Source of the DNA: Micavibrio aeruginosavorus EPB
Lineage (GTDB): Bacteria > Pseudomonadota > Alphaproteobacteria > Micavibrionales > Micavibrionaceae
Assembly (NCBI RefSeq): GCF_000348745.1
Contig: NC_020812.1
Location: forward strand, 124,001 to 188,000
Direction: 5' to 3'
Length of the DNA stretch: 64,000 bases
The translations under genes were made by a program, and so were the position numbers. The notes under the pieces were generated by a model that was given only the letters and a program-made list of their open reading frames with translations, was not told the DNA's origin and made no database searches. Each line of letters opens with the position of its first letter. Position 1 is the first letter of the stretch. Below are positions 11,407-42,164 of the stretch, in pieces.

Positions 11407-11435
11407 TTCAATCAATGATAATGGGGGACTACATC

Positions 11436-14120
11436 ATGGGGGATCGTCTTTTGCGCAAGGCTGTGCATGCCGCTCTGCTGGTCGGGGGGATTGTGCTTGG
11501 CCTGGGTGTGCTGGGTGTTCCCACGCCGGCCCTCGCGGCCTGCTCCAACCCCGCCGGAAATGCGGGGGAGGTGATCTGGAACACCACGTCCAACACTCCC
11601 ACATATTGCGACGATACCAACTGGGTGTCCCTTGCCAAGGGCGGAAACGCGATCAGCTGGTTCACCGCGGCAACCCTGCCGTCTTTGGTTAATCCATCAC
11701 CCAACACCAACGATTATATGGGCCGCGGCGGTGTGTCCATATCCGGTAACCTGGCGGCCGTGGGTGCGCCGGATAATGCCGTCACTTTTGCGGCTGAGGG
11801 GTCCGTTTATGTTTATGCGCTGGACACCGGGGCGCTGGTGTCGACGCTGGTCAACCCCAATCCGACGGCCAGTGATTATTTCGGTTATGATACCGAAATT
11901 GACGGCAGTCTGGTTGTTGTGGGTGCGCCTGACGATGATGCCGGGGGCAGTGGCGCGGGGCAGGCTTATGTGTTTAACGCCACGACCGGGGCGTTGGTGT
12001 CAACGCTGGTCAATCCCAATCCGACCGCGAATGATTCATTTGGCGGCGATGTTGATATATCCGGCAATCTGGCGATTGTAGGGGCGCGGTTCGATGATCC
12101 GGGCGGAGTCAGTGCTGCGGGGCAAGCCTATGTGTTCAACGCCACGACCGGGGCGCTGGTGTCGACGCTGGTCAATCCCAGTCCGACGACGAATGATTAT
12201 TTTGGTGTGGATGTAGCGGTATCCGGGAACTGGGCCATTGTGGCCGCGCCGGATGATGATCCGGGTGGTCTAGATAATGCTGGCTCGGTGTATGTTTTTA
12301 ATGCGAATACCGGGGCGCTGCTGCATACGCTGACTGCGCCTGTTCCCGCGGTTTATAAAGATTTCGGATCCTCTGTCGCGGCGGACGGGGATCGGCTGAT
12401 CGTCGGAATGAACAATGCCGATGTGGGTCCCGGGCCAGCTTACTCTGCTGGGGCGGCATATATTTATAATTTAAATACCGGTGCTCTGGTGATGACCATC
12501 GAAAACCCCGAACCAGAGGACAGTGATAATTTTGGCTATACCAATTCCGTTGCGATTTATAACGGCATGGTGGCGGTCGGTGCCTATAGCGCCGATCCGG
12601 ATGGGATCAGTGCTGCGGGTAAAGTTCATCTGTTCAATGCCGAAAGCGGCGCGTGGCTGGGTCGCGTGACGCGCCCGAATAAACAGGCGAACGATTATTT
12701 CGGCCAGGGGATTGCGCTTGGCGATAATGTTTTGGCGGTGCCGTATCAAAAAGAAATGGTCAGTGGCCTGAGTAATGCGGGAACGGTTTATGTTTTTGAA
12801 CCCAGCCTTCCTGTTGGCGCGGAACCCTGGACGAATGTTGGAATGGGCAATTATTCCAGCTGCGGCACGCGCAATGGCCAGCTTTATTGCTGGGGTCAAA
12901 ACGCTTATTACGGGACAGGTCTTGGTACATCCACGGGCTATCAAACCACCCCGGCGCGCGTGGGAACAGATACGACGTGGGATATGGCCAAGGGCTCGGC
13001 TTTCCACAGCTGCGGTATCAATAACGGGGCGTTATATTGCTGGGGCGGGAACGCTTCCGGCCGCACTGGCATGGGCACGACATCAGGAGATACCACGACA
13101 CCAACGCAGGTTGGGGCATTTACGGATTGGACCTATGTGGATGCGGAATACAGCCACTCTTGCGCCCTGCGTGGCGCGGGGCTGCTATATTGCTGGGGAT
13201 CCAACAGCTCGGGGCGCACGGGGCTTGGGACAACATCGGGAACGACAACCACGCCAACACAGGTTGGGGCATTTACGGACTGGACGTGGGTGGCCGGGGG
13301 TAACACAACAACATGCGGCATTCGGTCGGGTGCGTTGTATTGCTGGGGTTCGCAATTCTACGGCAAGCTGGGTAACGGTTTGACCAGCGGCAGTGCATCC
13401 AGCCCGGTTCAAATCGGGTCGGATACGGATTGGACGGATGTCAGTGCGTCCTGGTCCCACACATGCGGCATTCGCGGCGGGGCGATGTATTGCTGGGGTT
13501 TCAACGGCGATGGCAGAACGGGGATCGGGGTTACCGCCGGGAACCAGACCACTCCGGCGCAGGTGGGGTCCGATACAGATTGGACCAACATTTCTGTTGG
13601 TGAAAGTTTCAGTTGTGGCTTGCGGGCGGGCGGCCAACTCTATTGCTGGGGGGCGAATTTCAGGGGGAAAACAGGTCTGGGGACCGATTCCGGAAGCCAG
13701 CTGGTTCCAGCCCAAGTGGGATCCTACAGCGATTGGGCTGCGCTCAGTTCAGAGGAAGGAGCCAGCTGCGCCTTGCGCAATGGCGGCACGATGTATTGCT
13801 GGGGCAATAACGGTGGCGGTGTGACGGGGCTTGGGCTTGATGGTGATACGACTGGCGTCGAGGGCACGTGGGTGCCAACGCTTGTGGGTGATGCATGTGC
13901 CGGACCTGTCGGAACAAATGGCGATATCACCTACAATCCAACCGACCATGTCCTGCAATATTGTGCGGGGGGACTGTGGCTGGCCGCCGGGCCGCCGGGG
14001 AATGGTGGGGCGGGGTGTTCCAACCCATCTGGCTCAGCGGGTCATATCGTTTACAACTCCACACACAATGTCCTGCAATATTGCGAGGGCGATACATGGG
14101 TTGCGTTGGGGCGACCGTAA
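11436..14120 (+). CDS. Secreted 7-blade FG-GAP plus 7-blade RCC1 propeller protein
   Basis: Protein of 894 residues. Signal peptide (hydrophobic AALLVGGIVLGLGVLGVP, AxA site ALA), then a cassette CSNPAG...TYCDDTNW. Next come seven FG-GAP_2-type repeats of about 54 residues (key pattern DYFG, then VVVGA, then YVFNATTGALV). Seven RCC1-type repeats of about 50 residues follow, each with a cysteine and a YCWG. Two C-terminal cassettes (GPVG...LQYC and NPSG...LQYC) end the protein. The ATG at 11436 follows GGGGGAC at a good distance and aligns with the start of the 35867 paralogue. It sits between the DivL-like gene and ahcY on the opposite strand. Binding or adhesion is a guess. Confidence 0.85.
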   Translation: MGDRLLRKAVHAALLVGGIVLGLGVLGVPTPALAACSNPAGNAGEVIWNTTSNTPTYCDDTNWVSLAKGGNAISWFTAATLPSLVNPSPNTNDYMGRGGVSISGNLAAVGAPDNAVTFAAEGSVYVYALDTGALVSTLVNPNPTASDYFGYDTEIDGSLVVVGAPDDDAGGSGAGQAYVFNATTGALVSTLVNPNPTANDSFGGDVDISGNLAIVGARFDDPGGVSAAGQAYVFNATTGALVSTLVNPSPTTNDYFGVDVAVSGNWAIVAAPDDDPGGLDNAGSVYVFNANTGALLHTLTAPVPAVYKDFGSSVAADGDRLIVGMNNADVGPGPAYSAGAAYIYNLNTGALVMTIENPEPEDSDNFGYTNSVAIYNGMVAVGAYSADPDGISAAGKVHLFNAESGAWLGRVTRPNKQANDYFGQGIALGDNVLAVPYQKEMVSGLSNAGTVYVFEPSLPVGAEPWTNVGMGNYSSCGTRNGQLYCWGQNAYYGTGLGTSTGYQTTPARVGTDTTWDMAKGSAFHSCGINNGALYCWGGNASGRTGMGTTSGDTTTPTQVGAFTDWTYVDAEYSHSCALRGAGLLYCWGSNSSGRTGLGTTSGTTTTPTQVGAFTDWTWVAGGNTTTCGIRSGALYCWGSQFYGKLGNGLTSGSASSPVQIGSDTDWTDVSASWSHTCGIRGGAMYCWGFNGDGRTGIGVTAGNQTTPAQVGSDTDWTNISVGESFSCGLRAGGQLYCWGANFRGKTGLGTDSGSQLVPAQVGSYSDWAALSSEEGASCALRNGGTMYCWGNNGGGVTGLGLDGDTTGVEGTWVPTLVGDACAGPVGTNGDITYNPTDHVLQYCAGGLWLAAGPPGNGGAGCSNPSGSAGHIVYNSTHNVLQYCEGDTWVALGRP

Positions 14121-14342
14121 AATTTTCAGTTTATTGTTGCTGTCGCATTTTGAATTTATGATTGCGTATATTTAGGACGACATCTGTCGCCCCGGGTCTC
14201 GAAAAGCCCGTATGAATCAAAACATGGATGTGTCCCGCATTATATTCGTGCAGGGTGCGCATCCTGTCACATTCATACATATGGTTTTGCCCCGGCGGGA
14301 TTGGCGCTCCGGGGCTTTTTTATTTTTTGGGATTTTGACCAT
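14121..14342 (+). other. Intergenic leader with palindromes and internal terminator
   Basis: These 222 bp hold a near-palindrome CGACA-TC-TGTCG around 14180, another (CAGG..CCTG) near 14250, and a strong terminator hairpin at 14289-14328 that ends only 14 bp before the next start codon. I see no recognised riboswitch. Confidence 0.5.
14289..14328 (+). terminator. Rho-independent terminator or attenuator before the RCC1 gene
   Basis: Stem GCCCCGG (14289-14295) pairs with CCGGGGC (14309-14315), followed by six T, A and six T. It lies immediately upstream of the 14343 start codon, so it either ends the 11436 transcript or acts as an attenuator. Confidence 0.75.
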
Positions 14343-15821
14343 ATGATCCGTTTTTTGTGCTGCATTACTCTGTCCATTTTCCTTCTTCTGGCCGTGACAA
14401 CATCATCGGCGATGGCCGATTGCGCCAATCCTTCTGGTGTGGCGGGCGATATTGTCTGGAATGAAACATCGCTCAGCCCGGCATATTGTAATGATGTTGA
14501 TTGGATCGGTTTTCCACGGGGTCCAGAGGATGCGCCCGATATATCCGCTGGGTTTGGATTTGGGTGTTCTGTTTATGGTGGCTGGCTTTATTGCTGGGGG
14601 AATAACGCCAACGCGCGGACGGGTTTAAATACAACAACGGGGTCAACGATGGTGCCAACCCAAGTCGGCGCGGATTCGGACTGGACCGATGTGTCCGCCG
14701 GGTATGATCATGCGTGTGGCGTGCGATCCGGGCGGCTTTATTGCTGGGGTTCGAATGGTAATTATCAAACGGCTCAGGGGACAACGTCGGGGTCAACCAT
14801 GGTGCCAACGCAGGTCGGTGCGGCGACCGATTGGACCGCGGTTCAGGTGGGGGATAATTTTTCCTGTGGTTTACGGTCGCCGGGGGCGTTGTACTGCTGG
14901 GGTGCGAACAACCAGGGGGCCACGGGGCAGGGCACAACATCGGGCAACACGGCTACGCCGACTCAGGTGGGTGTGGCCACGGACTGGATGTTTCTGGGCA
15001 CTGGTTCTTATTTCATTTGTGGCGGACGCAGCAATGGGGCTTTGTATTGCTGGGGATGGAATCAATATGGGGAAACCGGTTTAAACACGACAGCGGGCTA
15101 TACCACAACCCCGACGCAGGTGGGTACGGATACGGGGTGGACGTCCGTCGCGGGTGGAACCTACAGCGGATGCGGTGTACGGTCCGGACAGCTTTATTGT
15201 TGGGGGTACAATGGGGATGGTGCCACGGGCTTGGGGACGACCACAGGCAACCAACTGGTCCCGGCGCAGGTGGGTGCGGCCACGGATTGGAGTTTTGTCG
15301 ATGTGGGGGGCGTGCATTCTTGCGGTATTCGATCCGGCGCGCTGTATTGCTGGGGATCAAACGGCAACGCGCGGACGGGCCTGAACACAATAACAGGCAA
15401 TCAATTGACCCCGGCCCAGGTGGGCACAGATACGAACTGGCAAAGTGTATCAACCGCCACATCCAGCGGCGCGAGCTCATCAGGTTATCGGGGTGGGGCC
15501 TTGTACAGTTGGGGGTCGAATGCGAATGCGCGGACGGGTCTGAATACAACCACGGGCAACCAGCTGGTTCCGGCGCTGGCCATGGGGTCGGCAACGTCGT
15601 GTACAAACCCGGTTGGTGTTTCCGGGGATATTGTTTTCAATTCAACCCACTCTGTTTTGCAGTTTTGTGATGGTCTGGTGTGGTGGGCGGCCGGGCCATT
15701 CGGCGATGGCGGTGCCGGGTGCACTTCTCCGGTCGGTGTAGCGGGTGCGCTGACGTACAACACCACGCACAATGTCATGCAATATTGCGAAGGCAGCGAC
15801 TGGATAAAAATCGGGGATTAA
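14343..15821 (+). CDS. Secreted 7-blade RCC1-type propeller protein
   Basis: Protein of 492 residues and paralogue of the RCC1 half of the preceding gene. Signal peptide MIRFLCCITLSIFLLLAV with cleavage after SAMA, one N-terminal cassette (CANPSG...AYCNDVDW), seven RCC1-like repeats, then two C-terminal cassettes (NPVG...LQFC and SPVG...MQYC). Blades 1-6 carry a Cys about 8-9 residues before YCWG; blade 7 has lost both cysteines (SSGYRGGALYSWG), consistent with an intra-blade disulfide. No good ribosome-binding site precedes the ATG. RCC1 folds are beta-propellers used for protein binding; the role here is unknown. Confidence 0.84.
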   Translation: MIRFLCCITLSIFLLLAVTTSSAMADCANPSGVAGDIVWNETSLSPAYCNDVDWIGFPRGPEDAPDISAGFGFGCSVYGGWLYCWGNNANARTGLNTTTGSTMVPTQVGADSDWTDVSAGYDHACGVRSGRLYCWGSNGNYQTAQGTTSGSTMVPTQVGAATDWTAVQVGDNFSCGLRSPGALYCWGANNQGATGQGTTSGNTATPTQVGVATDWMFLGTGSYFICGGRSNGALYCWGWNQYGETGLNTTAGYTTTPTQVGTDTGWTSVAGGTYSGCGVRSGQLYCWGYNGDGATGLGTTTGNQLVPAQVGAATDWSFVDVGGVHSCGIRSGALYCWGSNGNARTGLNTITGNQLTPAQVGTDTNWQSVSTATSSGASSSGYRGGALYSWGSNANARTGLNTTTGNQLVPALAMGSATSCTNPVGVSGDIVFNSTHSVLQFCDGLVWWAAGPFGDGGAGCTSPVGVAGALTYNTTHNVMQYCEGSDWIKIGD

Positions 15822-29878: not shown

Positions 29879-30005
29879 GGTTTAGTTTCCTTTTCGGTAG
29901 TCATGATCGCAAGAGGATTCCCCCGTCCGGCTGACCCCGTTTCAGTGAAGAAGGCGGGGAGTGACGGACGCTTGTCGCTGCCAGAGATTCATTGCGTCGT
30001 GCCTC

Positions 30006-30023
30006 ATGTGGATAAATCCACAT
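30006..30023. repeat. Palindrome in the cmk-rpsA intergenic region
   Basis: Perfect inverted repeat ATGTGGAT-AA-ATCCACAT about 130 bp upstream of rpsA. It could be an operator or an RNA hairpin in the rpsA leader; the rest of the 236-bp gap shows nothing specific. Confidence 0.5.
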
Positions 30024-30114
30024 CAGACGCGCTGGTTGTATCGGGCAAAGCCGCGGAAATCAACCATTTTCATGGAATTTTGTGATTCTTTTTCAAGGGG
30101 TTGACGGTGGCGGA

Positions 30115-30798
30115 TCAGCGGTCCGGCAGGGCCTTGCGGACATGCTCCATGGCCAGGGCGACCACGGCCTCCACCCCCATGGTGGTGGTGTCGATGACGA
30201 TGGCGTCCGGGGCGATCATCATCGGGGCGTCCTTGCGGCCCATATCGCGGGCGTCACGGATTTTCATATCGTCTAAAACCTGTTCAAATTCAATGGCTTC
30301 GCCGTTTCCACGGAGTTCTTTGTGGCGGCGGGCGGCGCGGGTGTCCACGGCGGCGTCGACATAGAATTTCACCGGAGCGTCAGGGCAGATAAAGGTCGTA
30401 ATGTCCCGTCCATCCAAAATGGCCCCTTTGGCCGGGGAGCCGTCCGCCAAAGCGGGCGGATGGGCGGCAAATCCGCGTTGCAGATCGATCAGCGCGGTGC
30501 GCACACCGGTTATGGCCGCCACGACGGACGCGTATTTCCCGGCCTGGGCCGTGCGGATAGCTGGGTCTTTAAGGGATTGAAGATCAAGGTTTTTTTGTAA
30601 ATTCTGCGCGGCTTGAATGGCGGTGGCTTCATCCGCCGGATCGCCCCCCGCGGCCAGCACATCCACGGCCACCTTGCGGTACAGCGTCCCCGTATCCAGA
30701 TAGGCAAAGCCAAGCGCATCGGCCAGTCGCCGGGCCAATGTGCCCTTGCCGCTGGCTGCGGTGCCGTCAATTGCAATGATGGGTGTCGGTGTTGTCAT
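30115..30798 (-). CDS. cmk: Cytidylate kinase
   Basis: Phosphorylates CMP and dCMP. It has 227 residues with P-loop IDGTAASGKGTLAR, then YLDTGTLYRKVA, ILDGRDITTFICPDA and the lid region AARRHKELRGNG. It is normally co-transcribed with aroA upstream and rpsA downstream; here aroA is 10 kb away beyond four propeller genes. The 5' end is divergent from the first of these, with a shared intergenic region of 122 bp. Confidence 0.95.
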   Translation of the reverse strand: MTTPTPIIAIDGTAASGKGTLARRLADALGFAYLDTGTLYRKVAVDVLAAGGDPADEATAIQAAQNLQKNLDLQSLKDPAIRTAQAGKYASVVAAITGVRTALIDLQRGFAAHPPALADGSPAKGAILDGRDITTFICPDAPVKFYVDAAVDTRAARRHKELRGNGEAIEFEQVLDDMKIRDARDMGRKDAPMMIAPDAIVIDTTTMGVEAVVALAMEHVRKALPDR

Positions 30799-30850
30799 AG
30801 TGGGCAGAATTGGGCGATTTGGCGTGTTTTGTAAAGCCTAAAAACGGCAG

Positions 30851-30884
30851 GTTTTATAGATTTATCAATCTATTCTGCTACAGT
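30851..30884 (+). promoter_or_regulatory. Shared propeller-gene promoter element, copy 2
   Basis: TTTTATAGATTTATCAATC, then TATTCTGC and TACAGT (extended -10 TG-C-TACAGT). It is nearly identical to 11373-11406 and 35807-35840. The predicted start of transcription is about 30 bases before the ATG at 30921. Confidence 0.75.
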
Positions 30885-30920
30885 GGTGGGGTGCGGTCAG
30901 GGAAGCGGGGGCGTCCTTTC

Positions 30921-32924
30921 ATGGGTTTTTTGCGTCATATTTCAAACGGACGAATTGCGCGGCTGCGCCAGCGGGTGCTGGCGCGCGGTCTTATTCTTCC
31001 ATGCGCAATGATCTTGCTTGTCACGGGTGCGTTGCCCGCGCCTGCGTACGCGGCGTGTACGAGCCCGACGGGGGCCGCCGGTGATTTGATCTGGAGCAGT
31101 GCGGGGCGCGTGCCCGCCTATTGCGATGGCACGACCTGGCATGGGTTTCCCAAGGGCGGGTATGCGTGGACGTCGCCCATTACTGGCGCGATCATGAACA
31201 ACCCCAGCCCCACCACCAATGACCAGTTCGGCAGTTCGGTGTCCGTATCGGGTAATTTGATTTTGGTTGGTGCTGTTCTGGATGAATCCAACGGGACGAA
31301 TGGAACGGCGGATGCAGGGCGGGCCTATGTTTATGATATCGACACGGGCGCGCTGGTCTCGACACTGAATAACCCCACCCCGAATGCCAATGATTATTTC
31401 GGTGGTTTTGTGGGGCTGTCGGGCACGCTGGCGCTTGTGGGGGCCGAAAATGATGAGGCCAACGGCACCACCGGGACGTCAAATGCGGGCCGCGCGTATG
31501 TGTTCAATGCGCTGACCGGGGCGCTGGTGTCGACCCTGAATAACCCCAGTGCGAACTCCGGCGACAATATGGGTTGGACGGCTGGGTTGTCGGGGAATCT
31601 GGCGGCCCTGGGGGCGCCGAATGATGAATCGGATGGCGGGGCCGGTGTTGCCAACGCGGGGCGTGCTTATGTGTTCAACGCGACAACGGGGGCCGTGGTG
31701 TCGACATTGAACAACCCGACCCCACATACCGACGACCAGTTCGGATACTCGATTGCGATTGATGGAAATTTGGTGGCCGTTGGCACGCCGAATGACGCGG
31801 CGGACGGGACCAGTGGCGTGTTGTCGGGGCGGGCCTATGTGTTCAATGCGACAACCGGGGCCTTGGTGTCGTCGCTGAATAACCCGCATCCAAATGCGAC
31901 GGATTATTTTTCAAATGCAATCGCGATATCAGGCAACCGTGTTGCTGTTGGGGCGCCGTGGGATGAATCGGATGGAACAACAGGAACCAGCTCTGCCGGG
32001 CGCGTTTATGTTTTCAATGCCACGACCGGGGCTTTGATTTCCACCATCAATAACCCGACGCCGCACGCCAATGATTATTTTGGCGTTTCGGTTTCGATTT
32101 CTGACAACATTGTCGCGGTCGGGGCGCCGTATGATGAATCAAACGGCACGACAGGGACGGCGGATGCCGGGCGCGTTTATTTGTTTAATGCGGATACTGG
32201 CACCCTGATCACGGCCATCAGCAACCCGACGCCAAACAATACGGATTGGTTTGGGAATGCGGTTTCTGTGAGCGGACAACGGTTGGGTGTTGCGGCCCCT
32301 CTGGATGAATCCAACGGGACGAACGGAACGGCGGATGCCGGGCGTATCTATGCCTTCAGTGTGAGTTCGGGCACGACGGCGTGCGCAAACCCGGCCGGTA
32401 ATGTTGGTGATATGTCGTACAATACAACCAGCCACGTTTTGCAATATTGCGATGGGCACGCATGGTATGCGGCGGGATCGCCCGGTAATGGCGGTGCGGG
32501 CTGCACAAGCCCCACCGGTGCCGAGGGGGCTGTGACTTATAACACCACGCACAATATCTTGCAGTACTGCGAAGGTGATGTCTGGATGGCGGTGGGTGAT
32601 TTTGTTCCGCCGACATGTGGTGGCGTCGTTGTGGGGACGTATTGCTGGTATTATGGTGGCGATAACCAAAGCTGCAACACGGTCTGTGCCTCACGCGGCG
32701 GGTGTAACGCGGCGGGCATTTCTTACGCGGCGGGGTCGACGGCAAACTGTACGGCGGTTCTGGATGCCATTGGCGCACCGGGCGGGGCGTATTATTTCCA
32801 GGGCTACGGGGCCTTGAATATCGGGTGCAGTTACGCGACAGGCAATGGCCGTGTGCGGGACACCAGCAACACGTGCGGCGGCGCGTTGGCGGCGTCCTTG
32901 CGGGCGTGTGCTTGTAACAACTGA
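30921..32924 (+). CDS. Secreted 7-blade FG-GAP propeller with Cys-rich C-terminal domain
   Basis: Protein of 667 residues. Basic N terminus then hydrophobic LILPCAMILLVTGALPAP with AYA cleavage site; N-terminal cassette CTSPTG...AYCDGTTW. Seven FG-GAP_2 repeats follow, several with an inserted DESNGTNGTADAGR-like loop that could bind calcium. Two cassettes (NPAG...LQYC and SPTG...LQYC) come next, then a tail of about 105 residues with about ten cysteines (YCWYYGG, CNTVCASRGGC, ending RACACNN). The ATG at 30921 is placed by the promoter element; in-frame sequence upstream of it would precede transcription. Confidence 0.85.
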   Translation: MGFLRHISNGRIARLRQRVLARGLILPCAMILLVTGALPAPAYAACTSPTGAAGDLIWSSAGRVPAYCDGTTWHGFPKGGYAWTSPITGAIMNNPSPTTNDQFGSSVSVSGNLILVGAVLDESNGTNGTADAGRAYVYDIDTGALVSTLNNPTPNANDYFGGFVGLSGTLALVGAENDEANGTTGTSNAGRAYVFNALTGALVSTLNNPSANSGDNMGWTAGLSGNLAALGAPNDESDGGAGVANAGRAYVFNATTGAVVSTLNNPTPHTDDQFGYSIAIDGNLVAVGTPNDAADGTSGVLSGRAYVFNATTGALVSSLNNPHPNATDYFSNAIAISGNRVAVGAPWDESDGTTGTSSAGRVYVFNATTGALISTINNPTPHANDYFGVSVSISDNIVAVGAPYDESNGTTGTADAGRVYLFNADTGTLITAISNPTPNNTDWFGNAVSVSGQRLGVAAPLDESNGTNGTADAGRIYAFSVSSGTTACANPAGNVGDMSYNTTSHVLQYCDGHAWYAAGSPGNGGAGCTSPTGAEGAVTYNTTHNILQYCEGDVWMAVGDFVPPTCGGVVVGTYCWYYGGDNQSCNTVCASRGGCNAAGISYAAGSTANCTAVLDAIGAPGGAYYFQGYGALNIGCSYATGNGRVRDTSNTCGGALAASLRACACNN

Positions 32925-32936
32925 CGGTATGACCTT

Positions 32937-32967
32937 AGGGGTAGGGGTGCTGGCCCTCCCCTTTTTT
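32937..32967 (+). terminator. Terminator between the first and second propeller genes
   Basis: Stem AGGGG-(T)-AGGG pairs with CCCT-CCCCT around loop GTGCTGG, followed by six T. Confidence 0.75.
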
Positions 32968-33050
32968 CGGCCTATCTTCCTCAAAATATACGGGAAAACT
33001 GCGCGCGGTCATTCCGGCGCAGTAAAATCGGATTTTTTTGAGTTTTGCGT

Positions 33051-35783
33051 ATGGGTTTATGTGTAAATCGCTGGCACAGGCGATGCGGTGGGTTTTTCGC
33101 CGGAATGGTCTTGTGTGCAATCTCTTTTTTATCTTCCGCACCGGCTCTGGCCGCCTGCGCCAACCCGGCGGGCGATGCCGGGCATGTGGTGTGGGATGTC
33201 TATGCCTATCGCCCCGCTTATTGCAATGGCGCCAATTGGGTGCCGTTTCGCAAGGGGCTGGGGGCGGATACCCTGCCCACAGCGCATCTGCGAACGATCA
33301 ATAATCCTGAGCCGGGTGATGATGACCGCTTTGGTCAGGTTATGTCCATTTCGGGTGACCGTGTCGCGGTTGGCGCATTTATTGATGATCCCGGCGGAAT
33401 CGTGAATGCGGGGTCGGCCTGGGTGTTTGATGTCAAAACCGGTGCGCTCCTGACAACGCTGAATAACCCGAGCCCCACAGCCTCGGATCAGTTTGGCTTC
33501 GAGGTGTCTTTCTCCGGCGATCTGGTGGCGGTCAATGCACCCTATGACGACTTTTCAACCTATTCCGATCCGGGGCAGGTTTTTGTGTTTAATGCGACAA
33601 CGGGCGCGGTTGTGCGCACGCTGCAATCCCCGGCGCCGCAGGACAGCGCCCGCTTTGGCTATGGTGTTTCGATCGATGGCGATCTGATCGCCGTGGGTGA
33701 AGATGGGGCTACGGTTGGTGGTTTTGCACAAGCAGGTCGCGCCCACATCTTTCGCGTCAGCACGGGCGCATTGATTCGAACCATCAATAATCCGGCGCCT
33801 GCCACCAGCGACCGTTTTGGTGTGCGTGTGAGTTTGTCGGGCGATAAGGTCGCGATCGCCGCATATTTGGATGACCCCGGGGGTGTCGCCGATGCGGGGA
33901 CGCTGTATGTATACAACATCAATTCCGGCGCCCTGGTTACAACCCTTAATCATCCGTCCCCGGTGGCCAATGATCAGTTTGGCTTGGGGGTGTCCTTGGA
34001 CGGCGATTTGGTCGCAGTGGCGGCGTATTTTGATGATTATAGCGGCATGACCGATGCGGGCACGGCTTTTGTTTTTAATGCCACAACGGGGGCGTTGGTT
34101 TCGACATTACAATCCCCCAATGCGGCGGCGGGGAATAATTTTGGCAACGGTATTCAGTTGCGTGGTACGCGTGTTTTGGCGGGATCTCGATTTGAAACGG
34201 TCTATGGTGTGTCCAAGGCGGGGGCTGCGTACATGTTTGATGCGCTGACTGGATCTGTTCTGGCGGAATATTATCCCCCCAATCCGATGGCGGATGATGA
34301 ATTTGGTGCGCGTCCGGCGTTCTCAGGAAAATATGCTGCGTTGGGGGCGCGCTGGCGCGATATTGGCGGGTATGTCGATACGGGTCAGCTTTATATTTAT
34401 GGCCCGGATGATTCCAGTTGGCGGACCCCGGTTGTGGCGGCCAGTTTCGAAAATCCTGAGCCCGAGGCCCAGGATCGTTTCGGGCACGTCACGGCCGTGT
34501 CCGGCGATATCATCACGATTGGCGCGCGCTATGATAACCCCGGTGGTGTTGCGGATTCCGGGTCCATTTATGTTTATAATCTAAAGGACAGCACCCAGCT
34601 CCATCACATCACCAGCCCGAATCCCGCAACGGGCGGGGCGTTTGGTTTTGCTTTGGATTCTGAGGAACGCTATCTGGTCGTGGGGGCCCCGCTGGAGGCT
34701 GTGGGTGCGCTAAACGGCGCGGGCCGTGCGTATCTGTACGACATGCAGCAGGGTCGCCTGCTACGATCTTTCCAAAGCCCAACCCCGACGGCTGGTGCCT
34801 ATTTCGGTGAAGATGTCGCCATTTCCGGCAATCTGATGGTGGTAGGGGAGATGCATTATGATGCTTCGGGGGCGGTGACGGATTCCGGGGCGGCCTATGT
34901 GTACAATGTTGAGACGGGGGCGCTGGTGGCGACCCTGTTGAATCCGGCTCCTGCCACCAGTGACCGTTTTGGTGTGCGAACGGATATCAGTGGCAATGTC
35001 GTGATTGTCGGGGCGTATCTGGATAATCCGGGCGGCGTGACCGATTCGGGTACGGCCTATTTGTTCAATGCCACAACGGGCGCTTTGCTGCATACCCTGT
35101 CCAACCCCAGCCCCGGGACCAATGATCAATTCGGTTTGGGGGTCACGATTGATGGGGATTATGCCGTTGTCGGGTCCATGTTCAACGATTATGGCGGGAT
35201 GATCGATGCGGGCTCAGCCCATGTTTTTGATGTCAATTCAGGGGCGTTCCTGCATGCGTTGACCAGCCCCAATCCCGCCGCCGATGACCAGTTTGGCAAT
35301 GGCCTTAAATTGCTGGGAAATGTTGTCGCCGTTGGATCGCGGGGCGATGATTCTAGCGGTGTGACCGATTCTGGTGCGGCGTATGTTTTTCGTGTTGATA
35401 CCGGGGCGCTGCTGGGAACAATGTATTCTCCTACGCCAACAACGGGTGACTTGTTTGGCGCACAGCCTTTCGTCTCGTCACGCTATGTTGTGTTGGGTGC
35501 GCATTACGGCGCGGCTGGTGGTGTGAACGAAGCCGGACAGTTGTACGTCTTCACCGCCCAATGCGCCAACCCGGCGGGCGGCATCGGGGACATTGTGTAC
35601 AACAATACGGATCATGTTCTGCAATATTGTGACGGTGCGGCCTGGCGCGCGGCGGGGCCTGTGGGCAATGGCGGGGCGGGGTGTTCTGCGCCTGCGGGTA
35701 CGGCCGGGCATCTGGTCTATAATTCGACCCATAATGTGCTGCAATATTGCGAGGGCGACCGCTGGGTGGCTCTGTCTCCTTAA
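33051..35783 (+). CDS. Secreted 14-blade (7+7) FG-GAP propeller protein
   Basis: Protein of 910 residues. Signal peptide MGLCVNRWHRRCGGFFAGMV... cleaved after PALA, N-terminal cassette CANPAG...AYCNGANW, then fourteen FG-GAP_2 repeats and two C-terminal cassettes. Blades 4-7 match blades 11-14 one to one: PAPATSDRFGVR occurs in both 4 and 11, NDQFGLGV in 5 and 12, FGNG...GSR in 6 and 13, GQLY(I/V) in 7 and 14. This indicates duplication of a whole seven-blade propeller. A linker near residues 445-460 separates the halves. No promoter motif like the other copies was found upstream. Start at 33051 is the first ATG. Confidence 0.84.
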   Translation: MGLCVNRWHRRCGGFFAGMVLCAISFLSSAPALAACANPAGDAGHVVWDVYAYRPAYCNGANWVPFRKGLGADTLPTAHLRTINNPEPGDDDRFGQVMSISGDRVAVGAFIDDPGGIVNAGSAWVFDVKTGALLTTLNNPSPTASDQFGFEVSFSGDLVAVNAPYDDFSTYSDPGQVFVFNATTGAVVRTLQSPAPQDSARFGYGVSIDGDLIAVGEDGATVGGFAQAGRAHIFRVSTGALIRTINNPAPATSDRFGVRVSLSGDKVAIAAYLDDPGGVADAGTLYVYNINSGALVTTLNHPSPVANDQFGLGVSLDGDLVAVAAYFDDYSGMTDAGTAFVFNATTGALVSTLQSPNAAAGNNFGNGIQLRGTRVLAGSRFETVYGVSKAGAAYMFDALTGSVLAEYYPPNPMADDEFGARPAFSGKYAALGARWRDIGGYVDTGQLYIYGPDDSSWRTPVVAASFENPEPEAQDRFGHVTAVSGDIITIGARYDNPGGVADSGSIYVYNLKDSTQLHHITSPNPATGGAFGFALDSEERYLVVGAPLEAVGALNGAGRAYLYDMQQGRLLRSFQSPTPTAGAYFGEDVAISGNLMVVGEMHYDASGAVTDSGAAYVYNVETGALVATLLNPAPATSDRFGVRTDISGNVVIVGAYLDNPGGVTDSGTAYLFNATTGALLHTLSNPSPGTNDQFGLGVTIDGDYAVVGSMFNDYGGMIDAGSAHVFDVNSGAFLHALTSPNPAADDQFGNGLKLLGNVVAVGSRGDDSSGVTDSGAAYVFRVDTGALLGTMYSPTPTTGDLFGAQPFVSSRYVVLGAHYGAAGGVNEAGQLYVFTAQCANPAGGIGDIVYNNTDHVLQYCDGAAWRAAGPVGNGGAGCSAPAGTAGHLVYNSTHNVLQYCEGDRWVALSP

Positions 35784-35806
35784 AAGCGCCCCCTTAAAAC
35801 AGGGCG

Positions 35807-35840
35807 TTTTTATAGATTTATCAACATTTTCTGCTATACT
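35807..35840 (+). promoter_or_regulatory. Shared propeller-gene promoter element, copy 3
   Basis: TTTTATAGATTTATCAACA, then TTTTCTGC and TATACT (extended -10 TG-C-TATACT). Downstream spacing and the GATGGGGGTC ribosome site before the ATG at 35867 mirror the 11436 gene. Confidence 0.75.
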
Positions 35841-35866
35841 TTCGGGTGATGATGGGGGTCATCGCC

Positions 35867-37996
35867 ATGGGGGCTTCACGCTTTTTGTCAGGGTTTTTGC
35901 CCGTTTTGGGCCTGTTTCTGCTGCTGTGCGGTGGAACGGGCCCGGCGTATGCGGCCTGTGGGTCTCCGGCGGGGGATGCGGGGGATTTGATCTGGTCCTC
36001 GGCGGGGAATGTTCCGGCTTATTGTAATGACACGGACTGGGTGGCGTTTCCTGCGGGCACCGGATCCGCTGTGCCGACCCAGCTGGGGTTCACGCTGAAC
36101 AACCCGGTGGCGTCGGTGTCTGATTTTTTCGGGAACAAGGTGGCCATTTCGGGCGATCTGATTGTTGTTGGTGCCCATCTAGAAGATTTTGGCGGTTTTT
36201 CTGATTCTGGGGCGGCGTATGTCTTTAATGCGTCCACGGGGGCGCTGGTGAGTACACTGAATAACCCGGACCCAACGGTGCAGGATTATTTTGGAATCAG
36301 TGTTGCCATTTCCGGCAATATGGCTGTTGTCGGCGCGTATCAGGATGATCCCGGCGGAACCACCAGTGCGGGAACGGCGTATGTGTTTAACGCCACCACG
36401 GGGGCGTTGGTGGCCACATTAAATAAACCGGTGCCGGTGGCATATGATTTGTTCGGCATTGGTGTTGGGATTGATGGCAATCTGGCGATTGTTGGGGCGT
36501 ATCATGATGACCCGGGGGCGGTGTCCTTTGCCGGTGCGGCGTATGTGTTTAATGCCACCACAGGGGCATTGATCTCGACGTTGGTCAGTCCGAATGTGCA
36601 AGGATCCGGTTTTTTTGGGAACAGCGTATCGATCAGCGGCAATCTGGCCGCGGTCAGTGCGAATGGCGAAGACCCCGGTGGTGTCAACAATGCGGGTGCG
36701 GCGTATGTGTTTAATGCCACCACAGGGGCTTTGGTCGCGACTCTGGCTAATCCGGACCCCACGGATGGCGATTCCTTTGGCAGCAACATTGCGATCAATG
36801 GAAATATTGTCGCCGTGGGCGCGCATACGGACGATGTTGGCGGCACCAGTGATGTGGGGTCGGCCTATACGTTTAATGCGACCACGGGGGCTTTGCTGGC
36901 CACGTTGGTCAAACCGGATCCGCTGGCCAGCGACTTTTTTGGAGTGTCCGTATCTGTATCGGATGGGCTTGTGGTGGTAGGGTCGCGCCAGGCTGATGTT
37001 GGTGGCAATGGAAATGCTGGTGCGGCTTATGTATTTGATGCGACCACGGGTGATGTGTTGCGCACGTTGTCCAACCCCGCGCCGGCTGCCAATGATTATT
37101 TTGGATCTGGGGTCGGTCTGTCCGGGGGGCGGGCTGTTGTCGGAGCTTTTGGCAAAACGCCGGGGGCGTTTTCATCCGAGGGTGCGGCGTATGTGTTTCT
37201 ACCGGGGACTGGTGGCACGGGCTGTTTGACCCCGGCGGGTGTTTTGGGGGACATCGTATACAATAACGTTGCCCACGTTCTGCAATATTGTGATGGTGGA
37301 GCATGGATCGCGGCCGGTACACCGGGCAATGGTGGTGCCGGGTGCGTCAATCCATCCGGTGATGCCGGCGATGTCGTGTATAATTCCACCCATCATTACC
37401 TGCAATATTGCGAAGGTGACGCGTGGGTGGGTATTGGCCGTTATAATGAGGCAACATTGTCGCCTAAGGGCTGTTCTGTCATTGGGGATACGTGTACCGA
37501 TGGAACGATTTATGCGGGTCTGACGCCGGATGGCAATGTGCGTATGTATATAACGGCGGCCAACGGGCCAACGCGTGAACCGTTCAACGCGGGGAATGTG
37601 GGTGCATCGCGGACAGACACATCGATGATCAATTGCGTAACCCCCTTTACCAATGCGGGCTGTATTCAGGGTGAGGCGAACACCGCCATCCTGGTTGTGG
37701 ATGATTCGGACAGTGTAACGCCCGGGGTTCAGTCGCACGATGCAGCGGCCTATTGCTACAATTTGGTTGCCCACGGTCGCGACGATTGGTATTTGCCGGC
37801 CCGTAATGAGCTCAGAGAGATTTTTGACAACCTGGGCCCGGTGCCAAATTATGGTTTCACGTCCACGCCTGATTCATATTATTACTCGTCATCCGAAGAA
37901 AGCGCGACCAATGGCTGGGGCGTGGCCTTTGTCAACGGCAACTATTATGCCGGCGACAAGGCCAATAACTATCACGTGCGCTGCGCGCGCAAATAG
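35867..37996 (+). CDS. Secreted 7-blade FG-GAP propeller with DUF1566-like C terminus
   Basis: Protein of 709 residues. Signal peptide (FLSGFLPVLGLFLLLCGG, AYA site), cassette CGSPAG...AYCNDTDW, seven FG-GAP_2 repeats, two cassettes (LTPAG...LQYC, NPSG...LQYC), then about 180 residues ending in a DUF1566-type domain: HGRDDWYLPARNELREIF, SSSEESATNGWGVAF and YHVRCARK. DUF1566 is common in secreted and surface proteins of predatory and environmental bacteria; its function is not established. An in-frame GTG/ATG run upstream exists, but ATG 35867 has the correct ribosome site and aligns with the 11436 paralogue. Confidence 0.85.
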   Translation: MGASRFLSGFLPVLGLFLLLCGGTGPAYAACGSPAGDAGDLIWSSAGNVPAYCNDTDWVAFPAGTGSAVPTQLGFTLNNPVASVSDFFGNKVAISGDLIVVGAHLEDFGGFSDSGAAYVFNASTGALVSTLNNPDPTVQDYFGISVAISGNMAVVGAYQDDPGGTTSAGTAYVFNATTGALVATLNKPVPVAYDLFGIGVGIDGNLAIVGAYHDDPGAVSFAGAAYVFNATTGALISTLVSPNVQGSGFFGNSVSISGNLAAVSANGEDPGGVNNAGAAYVFNATTGALVATLANPDPTDGDSFGSNIAINGNIVAVGAHTDDVGGTSDVGSAYTFNATTGALLATLVKPDPLASDFFGVSVSVSDGLVVVGSRQADVGGNGNAGAAYVFDATTGDVLRTLSNPAPAANDYFGSGVGLSGGRAVVGAFGKTPGAFSSEGAAYVFLPGTGGTGCLTPAGVLGDIVYNNVAHVLQYCDGGAWIAAGTPGNGGAGCVNPSGDAGDVVYNSTHHYLQYCEGDAWVGIGRYNEATLSPKGCSVIGDTCTDGTIYAGLTPDGNVRMYITAANGPTREPFNAGNVGASRTDTSMINCVTPFTNAGCIQGEANTAILVVDDSDSVTPGVQSHDAAAYCYNLVAHGRDDWYLPARNELREIFDNLGPVPNYGFTSTPDSYYYSSSEESATNGWGVAFVNGNYYAGDKANNYHVRCARK

Positions 37997-38066
37997 GCGA
38001 TATATCCCTAAGGGTAGATCGCTGGTTTAAGCCTCAGATAATCCTATTTTAGTACCATATGTGAAG

Positions 38067-38095
38067 CCCCGCGGCGTTTTGGCGGGGTGTATTTC
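38067..38095 (+). terminator. Possible terminator before the last propeller gene
   Basis: Hairpin CCCCGC / GCGGGG with a 9-base loop followed by TGTATTT. The T run is weak. It lies 28 bp before the preferred ATG at 38115, like the hairpin before 14343. Confidence 0.4.
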
Positions 38096-38114
38096 GTATT
38101 TGGTGTTTCTGTCT

Positions 38115-40820
38115 ATGGGTTTTCGGGTTTGCGGCGTATGGGTGTTACGCTGTGTTTTTATTTTCTGCGTTTTTCTGTGTCCTGTGGCTCCGGCGTGGGC
38201 CGCCTGCTCCGGGCCATCCGGTGTTGCGGGCGATTTAATCTGGGATAATACCGCCAATACACCGGCCTACTGTAACGATGCGCGCTGGGTGCATTTTCCT
38301 GCGGGCATGGCTGGAGATGATTACACGGCAACGCTGTTGCTTCCCAATCCAGGGGTTGTGGCTGATGATGATTTCGGATCATCGCTGGGTGTGTCCGATG
38401 GAAAAATCATTGTCGGTGTGCGTATGCGCGATGTGTCCGGTGTGGCCAATTCCGGGCAGGCCCATATTTATGATGCTGAAACTGGACAGCGTCTTGTGAC
38501 GCTGGTTAACCCTGATAATACCGCAGGGGACCAGTTTGGGCACGGTGTGGACATTGATGGCAATCTGGCTGTGGTTGGTACGCCCGTAAACACGGTGGGC
38601 GGCATTGCTCAGGCGGGGTCGGCCTATGTTTACAACGCGACGACGGGGGCGCTGGTTTCAACGATCAATAATCCCTCACCCGGAAACATGGACTGGGTTG
38701 GATATGATGCGGCCATATCCGGCGCGGTTGTTGTGACCGGCGCACCGCAAAACGATTCCGGCTTTACTGACAATGGGTCTATTCATGCCTTTAATGCCAA
38801 CACGGGGGCGTTGTTGTGGGGTGTCAATGCGCCGGGCGCGGCCAATGGTGACTGGTTCGGAGCGGCGGTGGATATTGATGGCGATTTGGTGATTGCGGGC
38901 GCACATCTCAAAGATCCTGGAGGAATTAGCAATGCCGGGGCGTCCTATGTGTTCAATGCGGTGGATGGGTCATTGGTGGCCACGCTGAACAACCCTAATC
39001 CGGGGGCCAATGACAATTTTGGTCGGGCGGTTGCGATTCACGGCACAGTGGCCGTGGTCGGGGCCTATGGTGATACATCCGGCGGTGTGACCAATGCTGG
39101 AGCGGCCTATGTGTTCAATGCGCAAACGGGGGCTCTGATCTCAACACTCGAAAATCCTGATCCGGAAGATTCAGATAATTTTGGCATGGCGGTTGCGATC
39201 AATGGGAATATTGCCGTTGTTGGGGCGCGGTGGGCCAATATCAATGGGTTGGACAATGCCGGGATAGCGTATGTGTTCAATGCGACAACAGGTGACTTAC
39301 TGGATACTATATATAACCCTGCGCCAGCGGCTTCGGATACGTTCGGGTCACAGGTTCAGGTTTCGGACGGAGTAATTTTTGTGTCCGCCCGTGGCGATCT
39401 TTCCGGCGGTGTTGAAAATGCGGGGGCTGTTTACGTTTATAATAAAAAGCGCCCAAAATTTCAGAGCGCGACGGATCGAACCAAAATCGACAACCCCCTG
39501 CCCGAGGCCAATGACCGTTTCGGGGTCAGTGTGGGCATGTCGGGTGCTCTGGCTGTGGTTGGTTCATATCAGGACAATGTGGGCGGGTTTGATAATGCCG
39601 GGTCGGCGCATGTTTACAATGTGCGTTCGGGGCAACCTGTTGCTGTCTTGAATAACCCGACGCCAGCGGCCAGCGATATTTTTGGGTGGGAGGTCGCGCT
39701 AGACGGTAATATTGCCGTTGTGGGCTCAAACCAGAAAGATGTTGGCGGTGTTGTGGATACCGGCCAGGCCTATATTTTCAACGCCACCGCTGGCGCTCTT
39801 TTATTCACGCTGGACAATCCTGCGCCGCAAACGACGGATGTCTTTGGTATCAATGTGCGCATTGACGGGAATTATGTCGCCGTTGCGGCCACGCTGGACA
39901 ATCCGGGCGGTGTGAATGATGCGGGCAGCGTCTATGTTTTCAACGCATCAACTGGCGCTTTGGTTTCCACCATTCCCAATCCTGCCCCCGCGGCGACGGA
40001 TCGGTTTGGTGGGGGGCTCGATATATCGGGCAACCTTGTGGCGGTGGGGGCGTATTGGGATGATCCGGGCGGTGTTGCGGATGCGGGAACCGCCTATGTG
40101 TTTAATGCCACGACGGGGGCGTTGGTGTCCACGCTGAACAATCCGGCTCCGGCCAGTGGCGATGAATTTGGGTATGAAGTGCGCGTAGATGGAGATCTGG
40201 TGGCCGTTGGGGCGTGGCATGACGATCCCGACGGGGTCAGTGATGCGGGAACGGTGTATGTGTTTAATGCCACGACGGGGGCGTTGGTTGCAACGCTCTC
40301 AAATCCCGATCCGTTGGCCAGCGACCATTTCGGTGCGCGCCTGTCGATCGAGGGGCATCTGGTTTTTGTGGCGGCGCATGCCAGGGATGTTGGCGGCATC
40401 ATCGATGCGGGGATCGTCTATGTGTTTGATGCGATGACGGGCGCGTTGCTGGATACGATTGATAACCCTGCCCCGGAGACCGGCGATTCCTTTGGTCGCG
40501 GCATTTCCGCCGACGGGGGCTCCGTTCTGATTGGCGCTCTGGGACACGGTGTTGGTGGGGTTGCGGGGGCGGGAACGGTGTATCTGTTTTCACCGTCCTG
40601 TACAAATCCTGATGGTGTTGTTGGTGATATTACCTACAACACCACGCACCATCTTTTGCAGTATTGCGCGGGCGGGGACTGGATTGGTGCGGGGCCGATT
40701 GGGGATGGTGGCGGCGGTTGCGCGGGCCCGGCCGGAATCGAGGGTGATCTCATGTACAACTCTACGCATAATTATCTCCAGTATTGTGAGGGGGATAATT
40801 GGATCGGGATCGGGTATTAA
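38115..40820 (+). CDS. Secreted 14-blade (7+7) FG-GAP propeller protein
   Basis: Protein of 901 residues from ATG 38115. Signal peptide with hydrophobic VLRCVFIFCVFLCP and site AWA, N-terminal cassette CSGPSG...AYCNDARW, fourteen FG-GAP_2 repeats and two C-terminal cassettes (NPDG...LQYC, GPAG...LQYC). The two sets of seven are joined by a charged linker (NKKRPKFQSATDRTK) near residue 455. A GTG at 38061 would add 18 residues, but it overlaps a hairpin and lengthens the signal region. It is convergent with aroA, 9 bp apart. Confidence 0.84.
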   Translation: MGFRVCGVWVLRCVFIFCVFLCPVAPAWAACSGPSGVAGDLIWDNTANTPAYCNDARWVHFPAGMAGDDYTATLLLPNPGVVADDDFGSSLGVSDGKIIVGVRMRDVSGVANSGQAHIYDAETGQRLVTLVNPDNTAGDQFGHGVDIDGNLAVVGTPVNTVGGIAQAGSAYVYNATTGALVSTINNPSPGNMDWVGYDAAISGAVVVTGAPQNDSGFTDNGSIHAFNANTGALLWGVNAPGAANGDWFGAAVDIDGDLVIAGAHLKDPGGISNAGASYVFNAVDGSLVATLNNPNPGANDNFGRAVAIHGTVAVVGAYGDTSGGVTNAGAAYVFNAQTGALISTLENPDPEDSDNFGMAVAINGNIAVVGARWANINGLDNAGIAYVFNATTGDLLDTIYNPAPAASDTFGSQVQVSDGVIFVSARGDLSGGVENAGAVYVYNKKRPKFQSATDRTKIDNPLPEANDRFGVSVGMSGALAVVGSYQDNVGGFDNAGSAHVYNVRSGQPVAVLNNPTPAASDIFGWEVALDGNIAVVGSNQKDVGGVVDTGQAYIFNATAGALLFTLDNPAPQTTDVFGINVRIDGNYVAVAATLDNPGGVNDAGSVYVFNASTGALVSTIPNPAPAATDRFGGGLDISGNLVAVGAYWDDPGGVADAGTAYVFNATTGALVSTLNNPAPASGDEFGYEVRVDGDLVAVGAWHDDPDGVSDAGTVYVFNATTGALVATLSNPDPLASDHFGARLSIEGHLVFVAAHARDVGGIIDAGIVYVFDAMTGALLDTIDNPAPETGDSFGRGISADGGSVLIGALGHGVGGVAGAGTVYLFSPSCTNPDGVVGDITYNTTHHLLQYCAGGDWIGAGPIGDGGGGCAGPAGIEGDLMYNSTHNYLQYCEGDNWIGIGY

Positions 40821-40829
40821 AAAATTTGT

Positions 40830-42164
40830 TTAAAGATCCGCGTACATATCCTGTAGCAGTTTGATGAAATCCGGGAAGCTGGTTGCAATCGGGGACGTGT
40901 CGTCCACGCTGATGGGATTCTGGCTGGCCAGGCCCATGATCAGGAAACTCATCGCGATGCGGTGATCCAGCGCGGTTTCGATTGCGCCGCCGCCCTCGGG
41001 GGTGTGGCCGGTGCCGTGGATGATCAAACTGTCTTCGCCTGCCTCAACGCGCACGCCACACGCATCCAATCCTGTGGCCATCATGGCCAGGCGGTCGCTT
41101 TCCTTCACGCGCAATTCGGCCAGGTTGGTCATGGTGGTTGTGCCTTGCGCAAAGGCGGCGGCAATGCACAGGATGGGGACTTCGTCGATCATGCTGGGGA
41201 TGCGCTCGGGTGGGACCGTGATGCCCTGTAGCGCCCCGGTATAACGCACCGTTATATCGGCGATGCGTTCGCCGGCTTCGGTGCGGATGTTTTTAAATTC
41301 AATGTCCGCGCCCATCTCTTTCAACGTGTCATATAATCCGATACGGCGGGGGTTGATGCCGATGCGGGGCAGGGTGATGTCGGACCCTGGCACGATCAAT
41401 GCGGCCACGGTCAGGAAGGCGGCGGATGACGGATCGCCGGGGACGTCAATCGCACATCCCTGCAAGACATGGCCGCCATCAATGTGGATGGCATCGGTCA
41501 GGCCGGAAATTTTTTCAATGCGAACCGGAATGCCGAAATGGCGCAACATGTTTTCGGTGTGGTCACGGGTGGGGTGTTCCTCGATCACCGTGGTGGTGCC
41601 ATTGGCGCGCAGGCCAGCCAGCAAGACGGCCGATTTTACCTGGGCCGACGCTACGGGCAGGGTGTATTTGATGGGCTTTAATGAATCACTGCCACGCATC
41701 GTCATGGGCAATTTGCCGCCGTCGCGGGCCAAAAACACCGCGCCCATTTGTTCCAACGGCGTGATGACGCGGCCCATCGGACGTTTGATGAGCGAGGCGT
41801 CGCCCGTCAATGTCGCGGTGATGGCGTGCCCGGCCATAATCCCGGCCAGCAGGCGTGTCGATGTGCCGGAATTGCCCATGTCCAGAACATGGTCCGGGCT
41901 GTGCAGGCCCTTGGTGCCGACGCCGTGTACACGCCATAGCCCATCATCACCCGATGATATGCGCGCCCCCATCGCGGACAGGGCCGCGGCTGTCGCCAGA
42001 ACGTCGCCGCCTTCCAACAATCCGGAAATGATCGTTTCGCCATGCGCCAGCGCCCCAAGCATCAAGGCGCGGTGTGAAATGGATTTGTCGCCCGGAATCT
42101 TCACCCGGCCCATCAGGGCGGGGCATTGGCGGGATGTCATTGGTCGGTGCATGGAAGGGCGCAT
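40830..42164 (-). CDS. aroA: 5-enolpyruvylshikimate-3-phosphate synthase
   Basis: Sixth step of the shikimate pathway. It has 444 residues with GDKSISHRALMLGALA near residue 25, LDMGNSGTSTRLLAG, TGDASLIKRPM, ASAQVKSAVLLAGL, and C-terminal RVKESDRLAMMATGL and DHRIAMSFLIMGL. The sequence keeps the alanine in NSGTS-T rather than showing anything unusual. Starts at 42152 and 42140 are alternatives. Normally followed by cmk and rpsA; here they are separated by the plus-strand propeller block. Confidence 0.95.
   Translation of the reverse strand: MRPSMHRPMTSRQCPALMGRVKIPGDKSISHRALMLGALAHGETIISGLLEGGDVLATAAALSAMGARISSGDDGLWRVHGVGTKGLHSPDHVLDMGNSGTSTRLLAGIMAGHAITATLTGDASLIKRPMGRVITPLEQMGAVFLARDGGKLPMTMRGSDSLKPIKYTLPVASAQVKSAVLLAGLRANGTTTVIEEHPTRDHTENMLRHFGIPVRIEKISGLTDAIHIDGGHVLQGCAIDVPGDPSSAAFLTVAALIVPGSDITLPRIGINPRRIGLYDTLKEMGADIEFKNIRTEAGERIADITVRYTGALQGITVPPERIPSMIDEVPILCIAAAFAQGTTTMTNLAELRVKESDRLAMMATGLDACGVRVEAGEDSLIIHGTGHTPEGGGAIETALDHRIAMSFLIMGLASQNPISVDDTSPIATSFPDFIKLLQDMYADL

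Follow-up and report, generated by a model that had tools for sequence, protein, structure and literature searches.

Four genes, here called C, D, E and F (starting at 30810, 33045, 35846 and 38061, all on the + strand), sit between cmk/rpsA and aroA, as assigned with Pfam, in the 64,000-nucleotide stretch of Micavibrio aeruginosavorus EPB DNA that was analysed (the window, to which all positions refer). The cmk/rpsA-aroA interval around them spans positions 28163-42164. In many alphaproteobacteria, cmk/rpsA and aroA adjoin each other. The insertion is also present in a sister genome of the same genus (G002, a single contig of 2,481,983 bases; the genome studied here, G000, is a single contig of 2,458,610 bases), where C is followed directly by E and there is no separate D gene. 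Two further genes of the window, A and B, encode proteins built on the same frame. The features discussed below are the following.

11415..14120, + strand: A, predicted secreted protein, one seven-blade FG-GAP_2 ring and then seven RCC1 repeats, with the shared Cys motifs (Pfam; anchor, HMM and motif counts)
11685-12812, + strand: FG-GAP_2 ring of A
14301..15821, + strand: B, predicted secreted protein, seven RCC1 repeats, same Cys motifs (Pfam, motif count)
30810..32924, + strand: C, predicted secreted protein, one seven-blade FG-GAP_2 ring, C-terminal part without assignment (anchors, HMM, Pfam)
31194-32381, + strand: ring of C, 57-residue blades; Cys motif once before it and twice after it
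33045..35783, + strand: D, predicted secreted protein, 14 FG-GAP_2 blades as two rings (Pfam, anchors, blade HMM)
33297..34412, + strand: ring 1 of D, blades 1-7 (anchors, HMM, strand pattern)
34413..34448, + strand: inter-ring linker of D (7-to-8 step of 59 residues versus 54-55 at every other step)
34449..35573, + strand: ring 2 of D, blades 8-14, apparent in-register copy of ring 1 save blade 9 (anchors, HMM, fold, register)
35562..35770, + strand: tail of D, two Cys-motif copies
35846..37996, + strand: E, predicted secreted protein, one seven-blade ring, Cys motifs, Lcl_C domain (Pfam, anchors, HMM)
36095-37213, + strand: ring of E
37730-37990, + strand: Lcl_C domain of E
38061..40820, + strand: F, predicted secreted protein, 14 FG-GAP_2 blades as two rings (Pfam, anchors, blade HMM)
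38340..39464, + strand: ring 1 of F, blades 1-7 (74% identity to its counterpart in the G002 orthologue)
39486..40607, + strand: ring 2 of F, blades 8-14 (48% identity to its counterpart in the G002 orthologue, a ring assigned as D-type)

The layout of C, D, E and F consists of an apparent signal peptide (judged by eye), one Cys motif, the FG-GAP_2 blades and two further copies of the motif, and A and B share this frame, A with FG-GAP and RCC1 repeats and B with RCC1 repeats alone. The motif is about 40 residues long, reads C-x-x-P-x-G ... Q-Y-C-x-G-x-x-W (the head copy also as Y-C-x-x-x-x-W), and occurs as one copy behind the signal peptide and two copies at or beyond the ring. Neither Pfam nor NCBIfam has a model that scored above threshold on it. 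The motif of the D tail recurs in at least ten other places in the genome (11 by one count), and the tail has 23 matches there at E <= 0.001. The Cys motif marks a broad family of apparently secreted proteins whose heads differ.

Structure of the propeller proteins

The Pfam FG-GAP_2 model scored 306.4 bits on D and 337.6 bits on F (curated cut-off 23). Anchors and a blade HMM agree on 7 blades in A, C and E and on 14 in D and F, and both find 7 in an additional FG-GAP protein outside the window (X, at G000:C1:59.3-60.9 kb). By Pfam RCC1 match and motif count, A and B have 7 RCC1 repeats each; two more RCC1 proteins of the genome (L048) gave motif counts of 6 and 7 that became 7 and 7 after reading, and these counts leave out the protein at G000:C1:2187.5-2188.3 kb (L137). 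A sequence-only reading of the window had given FG-GAP counts of 7, 7, 14, 7 and 14 and RCC1 counts of 7 and 7, all of which were reproduced, and its coordinates were right apart from the choice of start codon.

The blade-to-blade step in the FG-GAP proteins is about 54 residues (57 in C) and lengthens by 5 residues, to 59, between blades 7 and 8 of both D and F. A fourth strand follows strand C in blades 1-6 and 8-13 of these two proteins and is missing only at blades 7 and 14, and a lone strand precedes blades 1 and 8. Since the long step falls between blades 7 and 8 and the fourth strand is missing only at 7 and 14, D and F are each best described as two closed rings with 3+1 closure.

AlphaFold models of D and F, from two-row alignments, have middling mean pLDDT values of 68.5 and 68.3, respectively. 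Residues 457-841 of the D model superimpose on integrin alpha-M (9t5z_A; Z 35.3, rmsd 3.2, 343 residues aligned) and residues 86-466 of the F model on integrin alpha-V (8vs6_A; Z 34.6, rmsd 3.8, 349 aligned), these scores covering one ring per model, ring 2 of D and ring 1 of F. Both aligned segments end at the predicted ring borders. The top ranks in Foldseek were WD40 and PQQ proteins with poor superpositions, and it was re-examination with VIA-align that led to the integrins. A PDB sequence search with D, F and an array of ~72-residue blades from genome G328 (see below) returned no match at E <= 1. Closed seven-blade rings are well supported by the 7/8 step, the strand pattern, the integrin fold of one ring per model and the array counts in other genomes, 54 of 55 of which are multiples of seven. 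We infer that closure is selected for, as the sequence-only reading had held; this would be the expected behaviour of a propeller fold.

The same reading proposed that the unit of duplication was a complete propeller, on the strength of matches between blades 4 and 11, 5 and 12, 6 and 13, and 7 and 14 of D. These matches hold, with identities of 64, 61, 52 and 43%, each the best of its row. Scored by information content, 1/8 likewise tops its row, 3/10 comes second and 2/9 comes last of seven. Mean identity in D is 0.468 at offset seven versus 0.336-0.411 at all other offsets, and pairing its halves in register gives rank 3 of 5040 by identity and rank 1 of 5040 by information. The register signal comes mostly from blades 4-7 (rank 1 of 840), less from blades 1-3 (13 of 210) and not at all from blade 2. 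For F the picture is different: mean identity at offset seven (0.433) lies below that at offset one (0.449), and the in-register pairing ranks 737 by identity, 899 by information and, borderline, 265 of 5040 with a wider background. The identity peak expected at offset seven is therefore present in D and not clear in F, and these comparisons support a whole-ring duplication for D only.

Comparison with the sister genome

Blade counts are equal in the five orthologue pairs compared between the two genomes (A 7, C 7, E 7, F 14, X 7). FG-GAP_2 matches were also sought in the other genus members G001, G003 and G004, and none was found. In G002, the position of the RCC1 gene B is taken by an apparently broken gene, whose frame includes only three FG-GAP blades before it ends out of register (L040:5067-6101).

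Between the F orthologues, identity is 83% for the head, 74% for ring 1, 48% for ring 2 and 86% for the tail. Co-linear DNA similarity between them ends at window position 39356 and restarts at 40524, with no match for 39357-40523. Ring 2 of the G002 orthologue is in register with ring 2 of D, the diagonal being best in all 7 rows and in 6 of the 7 columns; blades 2 and 3 of ring 1 of D have no match to it. Plain identity barely separates the candidates, as ring 2 of the G002 orthologue is 48% identical to ring 2 of F and 50% identical to the aligned D ring, so its assignment as D-type rests on register and tree. The trees pair blades in register, and most ring pairs other than orthologues and the D group share no register; the trees are therefore readable only for the D group and the orthologue pairs. 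Uniting ring 2 of F with ring 2 of its orthologue gave p-AU 0.0001 on the whole ring, 0.0004 on blades 4-7 and 0.15 on blades 1-3, and an SH test on the whole ring gave p 0.055, which is no rejection. A clade of ring 1 of F, ring 1 of its orthologue and ring 2 of F was not rejected (p-AU 0.49), which would be compatible with descent of ring 2 of F from its ring 1.

Taken together, the drop in identity, the D-type register of the G002 ring and the AU rejection suggest that a replacement affected ring 2 of the F gene, either all of it or the part from roughly blade 10 onwards, in one or other of the two sister lineages. Because no test rejects common descent of blades 1-3 and the whole-ring SH test stands at 0.055, blades 8-9 of F may be retained.

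Blade counts in other genomes

The FG-GAP_2 survey took in 142 genomes of the order, 21 of which gave matches, and 397 of the phylum, 25 of which did so at E <= 1e-7, and the regions behind the listed matches were taken from 19 of the 21 order genomes (not G124 or G126), all 25 phylum genomes and three plasmid records. A separate scan for related loci returned 6 in genome contigs and 1 in viral contigs. Among the matches listed, 33 genomes or records held 55 complete arrays: 41 with 7 blades, 13 with 14 and one with 9. The HMM alone gave a multiple of seven for 45 of them, and reading with the hypothesis known added 9 more, namely L086 (8 to 7), L108, L110, L122 and L130 (6 to 7), L127 (5 to 7), L093 (10 to 14), L043:7144 (12 to 14) and L120 (9 to 14). 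The broken three-blade gene of G002 and a G148 gene in which a frame break divides the array into 6+1 (L113) were dropped beforehand, as were arrays cut by contig ends (L087, L090, L098, L100, L128:3-1454 and, from the ~72-residue class described below, L097).

The nine-blade exception (L043:5017-7080, in G047) lies beside five 14-blade paralogues and resembles them minus blades 6-10, as if these blades had been lost in frame. In one seven-blade ring (L116, G218), an insertion of about 150 residues (residues ~690-835) splits the first blade.

A class with longer blades follows another number. FG-GAP_2 arrays with blades of about 72 residues occur inside very long haemagglutinin-type exoproteins, and the complete ones have 6, 12 (six times), 18, 24 (twice) or 42 blades, so that 11 of 11 are multiples of six (L046, L094-L096, L101, L102, L121, L129, L131, L135 and L136, all in other genomes). 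Nine were counted by HMM, L131 with its own motif-seeded model, and two after reading (L101, 11 to 12; L094, 13 to 12). Since several come from close relatives, the independent lineages number fewer than 11. Two of the host proteins were tested and carry TPS, YDG and MBG domains, and the others were judged from flanking text; in Comamonas antarctica, the exoprotein gene adjoins an FhaC-type partner gene. A self-similarity peak at offset six stood out in both G328 copies (0 of 3000 and 0 of 2000 shuffles), in G436 (0 of 3000) and in G094 (10 of 3000); it was weak in G092 (45 of 3000), and the test gave no clear peak in G006, G095 and G125. In G674, offset seven was higher (12 of 2000 shuffles) than offset six (130 of 2000). 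We read the ~72-residue arrays as putative six-blade rings that would have been duplicated whole. The claim that blade counts are always multiples of seven is too broad: it holds for every array counted in the genome studied and for nearly all of those surveyed elsewhere, but not for the nine-blade relative or for the sixes of the haemagglutinin-type exoproteins.

Discussion

D and F belong to an already known kind of protein, with two less expected twists, since bacterial FG-GAP proteins with 7 and 14 repeats have been published. In the sections available, Chouhan et al. 2011 describe bacterial integrin-type propellers of seven FG-GAP repeats, four entries having 14 (PMC3192720). The likeness extends to seven repeats per ring, rings sometimes two in tandem, and the fold of the integrin alpha head. 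In contrast, the five motif-complete examples described there have a calcium site in every repeat (PMC3192720), whereas the window proteins have no match to the calcium-loop motif and belong to Pfam FG-GAP_2. The calcium-loop motif D-x-[DN]-x-D-G, as in the metazoan integrin alpha propeller, had no match in the seven proteins of the genome studied.

WD40 proteins offer a parallel. In the portions available of the papers concerned, 14-repeat WD40 proteins such as Npun_R6612 fold as two seven-blade rings, and duplication is described at both the ring and the blade level (PMC5587647, PMC6805158, PMC9218822). Repeat numbers in WD40 proteins form a continuum between peaks at 7 and 14, and one array of 15 blades folds as 7 + 8 (PMC5587647, PMC9218822). 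The WD40 arrays, however, are of another blade family and are amplified from near-identical blades (PMC5587647, PMC6805158, PMC9218822), while the FG-GAP_2 blades of the window are old and diverged. Like the RCC1 seven-blade proteins (PF00415, PF13540, PF25390), A and B have seven repeats, but they are apparently secreted and are fused to the Cys-motif head and tail, with an FG-GAP ring in addition in A. In the open-access literature, we found no paper joining FG-GAP with Micavibrio and none joining FG-GAP, filamentous haemagglutinin and propeller; FG-GAP and two-partner secretion together led to one review. The words integrin and propeller are absent from the main text of the M. aeruginosavorus ARL-13 genome paper (PMC3189940).

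We consider it quite probable that these are secreted proteins of complete rings, that the ring of D was duplicated, that ring 2 of F was exchanged, and that the ring is the unit in both events. The genes at 33045-40820 would then encode secreted proteins made of complete integrin-type seven-blade FG-GAP propellers. The sequence itself shows that each ring closes by a 3+1 clasp and that a 14-blade protein is two rings joined by a short linker. D would have arisen by duplication, or second capture, of one whole D-type ring. F pairs two rings without demonstrable kinship, and its G002 orthologue carries a D-type ring in second place. Tandem paralogues on the same strand may recombine through similar blades, and presumably no product folds and persists unless its rings are complete, so that the ring would become the unit that is copied and exchanged.

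How the 14-blade proteins are built bears directly on this reading. A single 14-blade ring is ruled out by the linker, the strand pattern and the fold. More broadly, that these proteins form one large ring or an open superhelix is highly improbable: nothing speaks in its favour, the middling confidence of the models being all that leaves room for it, whereas the linker and the absent fourth strand interrupt the array at 7/8, the models fit single seven-blade integrin rings with borders at blades 7 and 8, and G083 and a Sulfurimonas aquatica plasmid have two sevens separated by unrelated sequence. An alternative for F is that ring 2 was never replaced and has diverged much more quickly than the parts on either side, driven by diversifying selection on a binding head. 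The 48% identity that ring 2 retains with its counterpart would agree with this, as would the outcome of the tests on blades 1-3 and of the SH test, yet the G002 ring has a closer in-register partner in ring 2 of D and the AU test rejects the union on the whole ring and on blades 4-7, which makes fast evolution an unlikely account of F.

It is also conceivable that the arrays grew blade by blade and were homogenised, with seven kept by the folding failure of other counts and the signal in D produced by local conversion of blades 4-7 into 11-14. The general lack of shared register among rings outside the orthologues and the D group would fit such a history, and so would blades 2 and 3 of D, which are out of the register match, and the nine-blade protein of G047 with its likeness to the 14-blade neighbours minus blades 6-10. 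Against it, the register between ring 2 of D and its G002 counterpart, the second ring of the F orthologue, holds from the first blade to the seventh, with rank 1 of 210 for blades 1-3, and counts are equal in all five orthologue pairs. We therefore doubt that amplification of single blades explains the locus, and prefer the duplication and exchange of complete rings.

The same may hold beyond the locus. The whole ring rather than the single blade could well be the unit of duplication, exchange and counting throughout this family, with sevens for FG-GAP_2 blades of ~53-59 (up to ~69) residues and sixes for the ~72-residue blades of two-partner-secretion exoproteins, whose arrays of 6, 12, 18, 24 and 42 blades would be one to seven six-blade rings in a row, although we stop just short of calling this probable.

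The function of the proteins can be suggested with much less assurance. They may be exported (the signal peptides were read by eye), with the Cys-motif head and tail anchoring them at the cell surface; the rings would be putative binding heads, probably for contact with other cells. Bacteria of the Micavibrio group are obligate epibiotic predators. Given this, and since the proteins appear to be secreted paralogues with interchangeable binding-type heads, we tentatively raise a role in binding at the cell surface, perhaps in prey attachment, as a possibility that is less likely to be right than wrong.

The tandem genes and the sister genome together amount to a natural experiment, in which orthologues have diverged in one complete ring and kept their head, ring 1 and tail. 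If the sixes are real rings, ring size could be told from blade counts alone in thousands of bacterial surface proteins that lack annotation. For the bacteria of the Micavibrio group, the locus draws attention to a family, as yet unstudied, of candidate proteins for binding at the surface.
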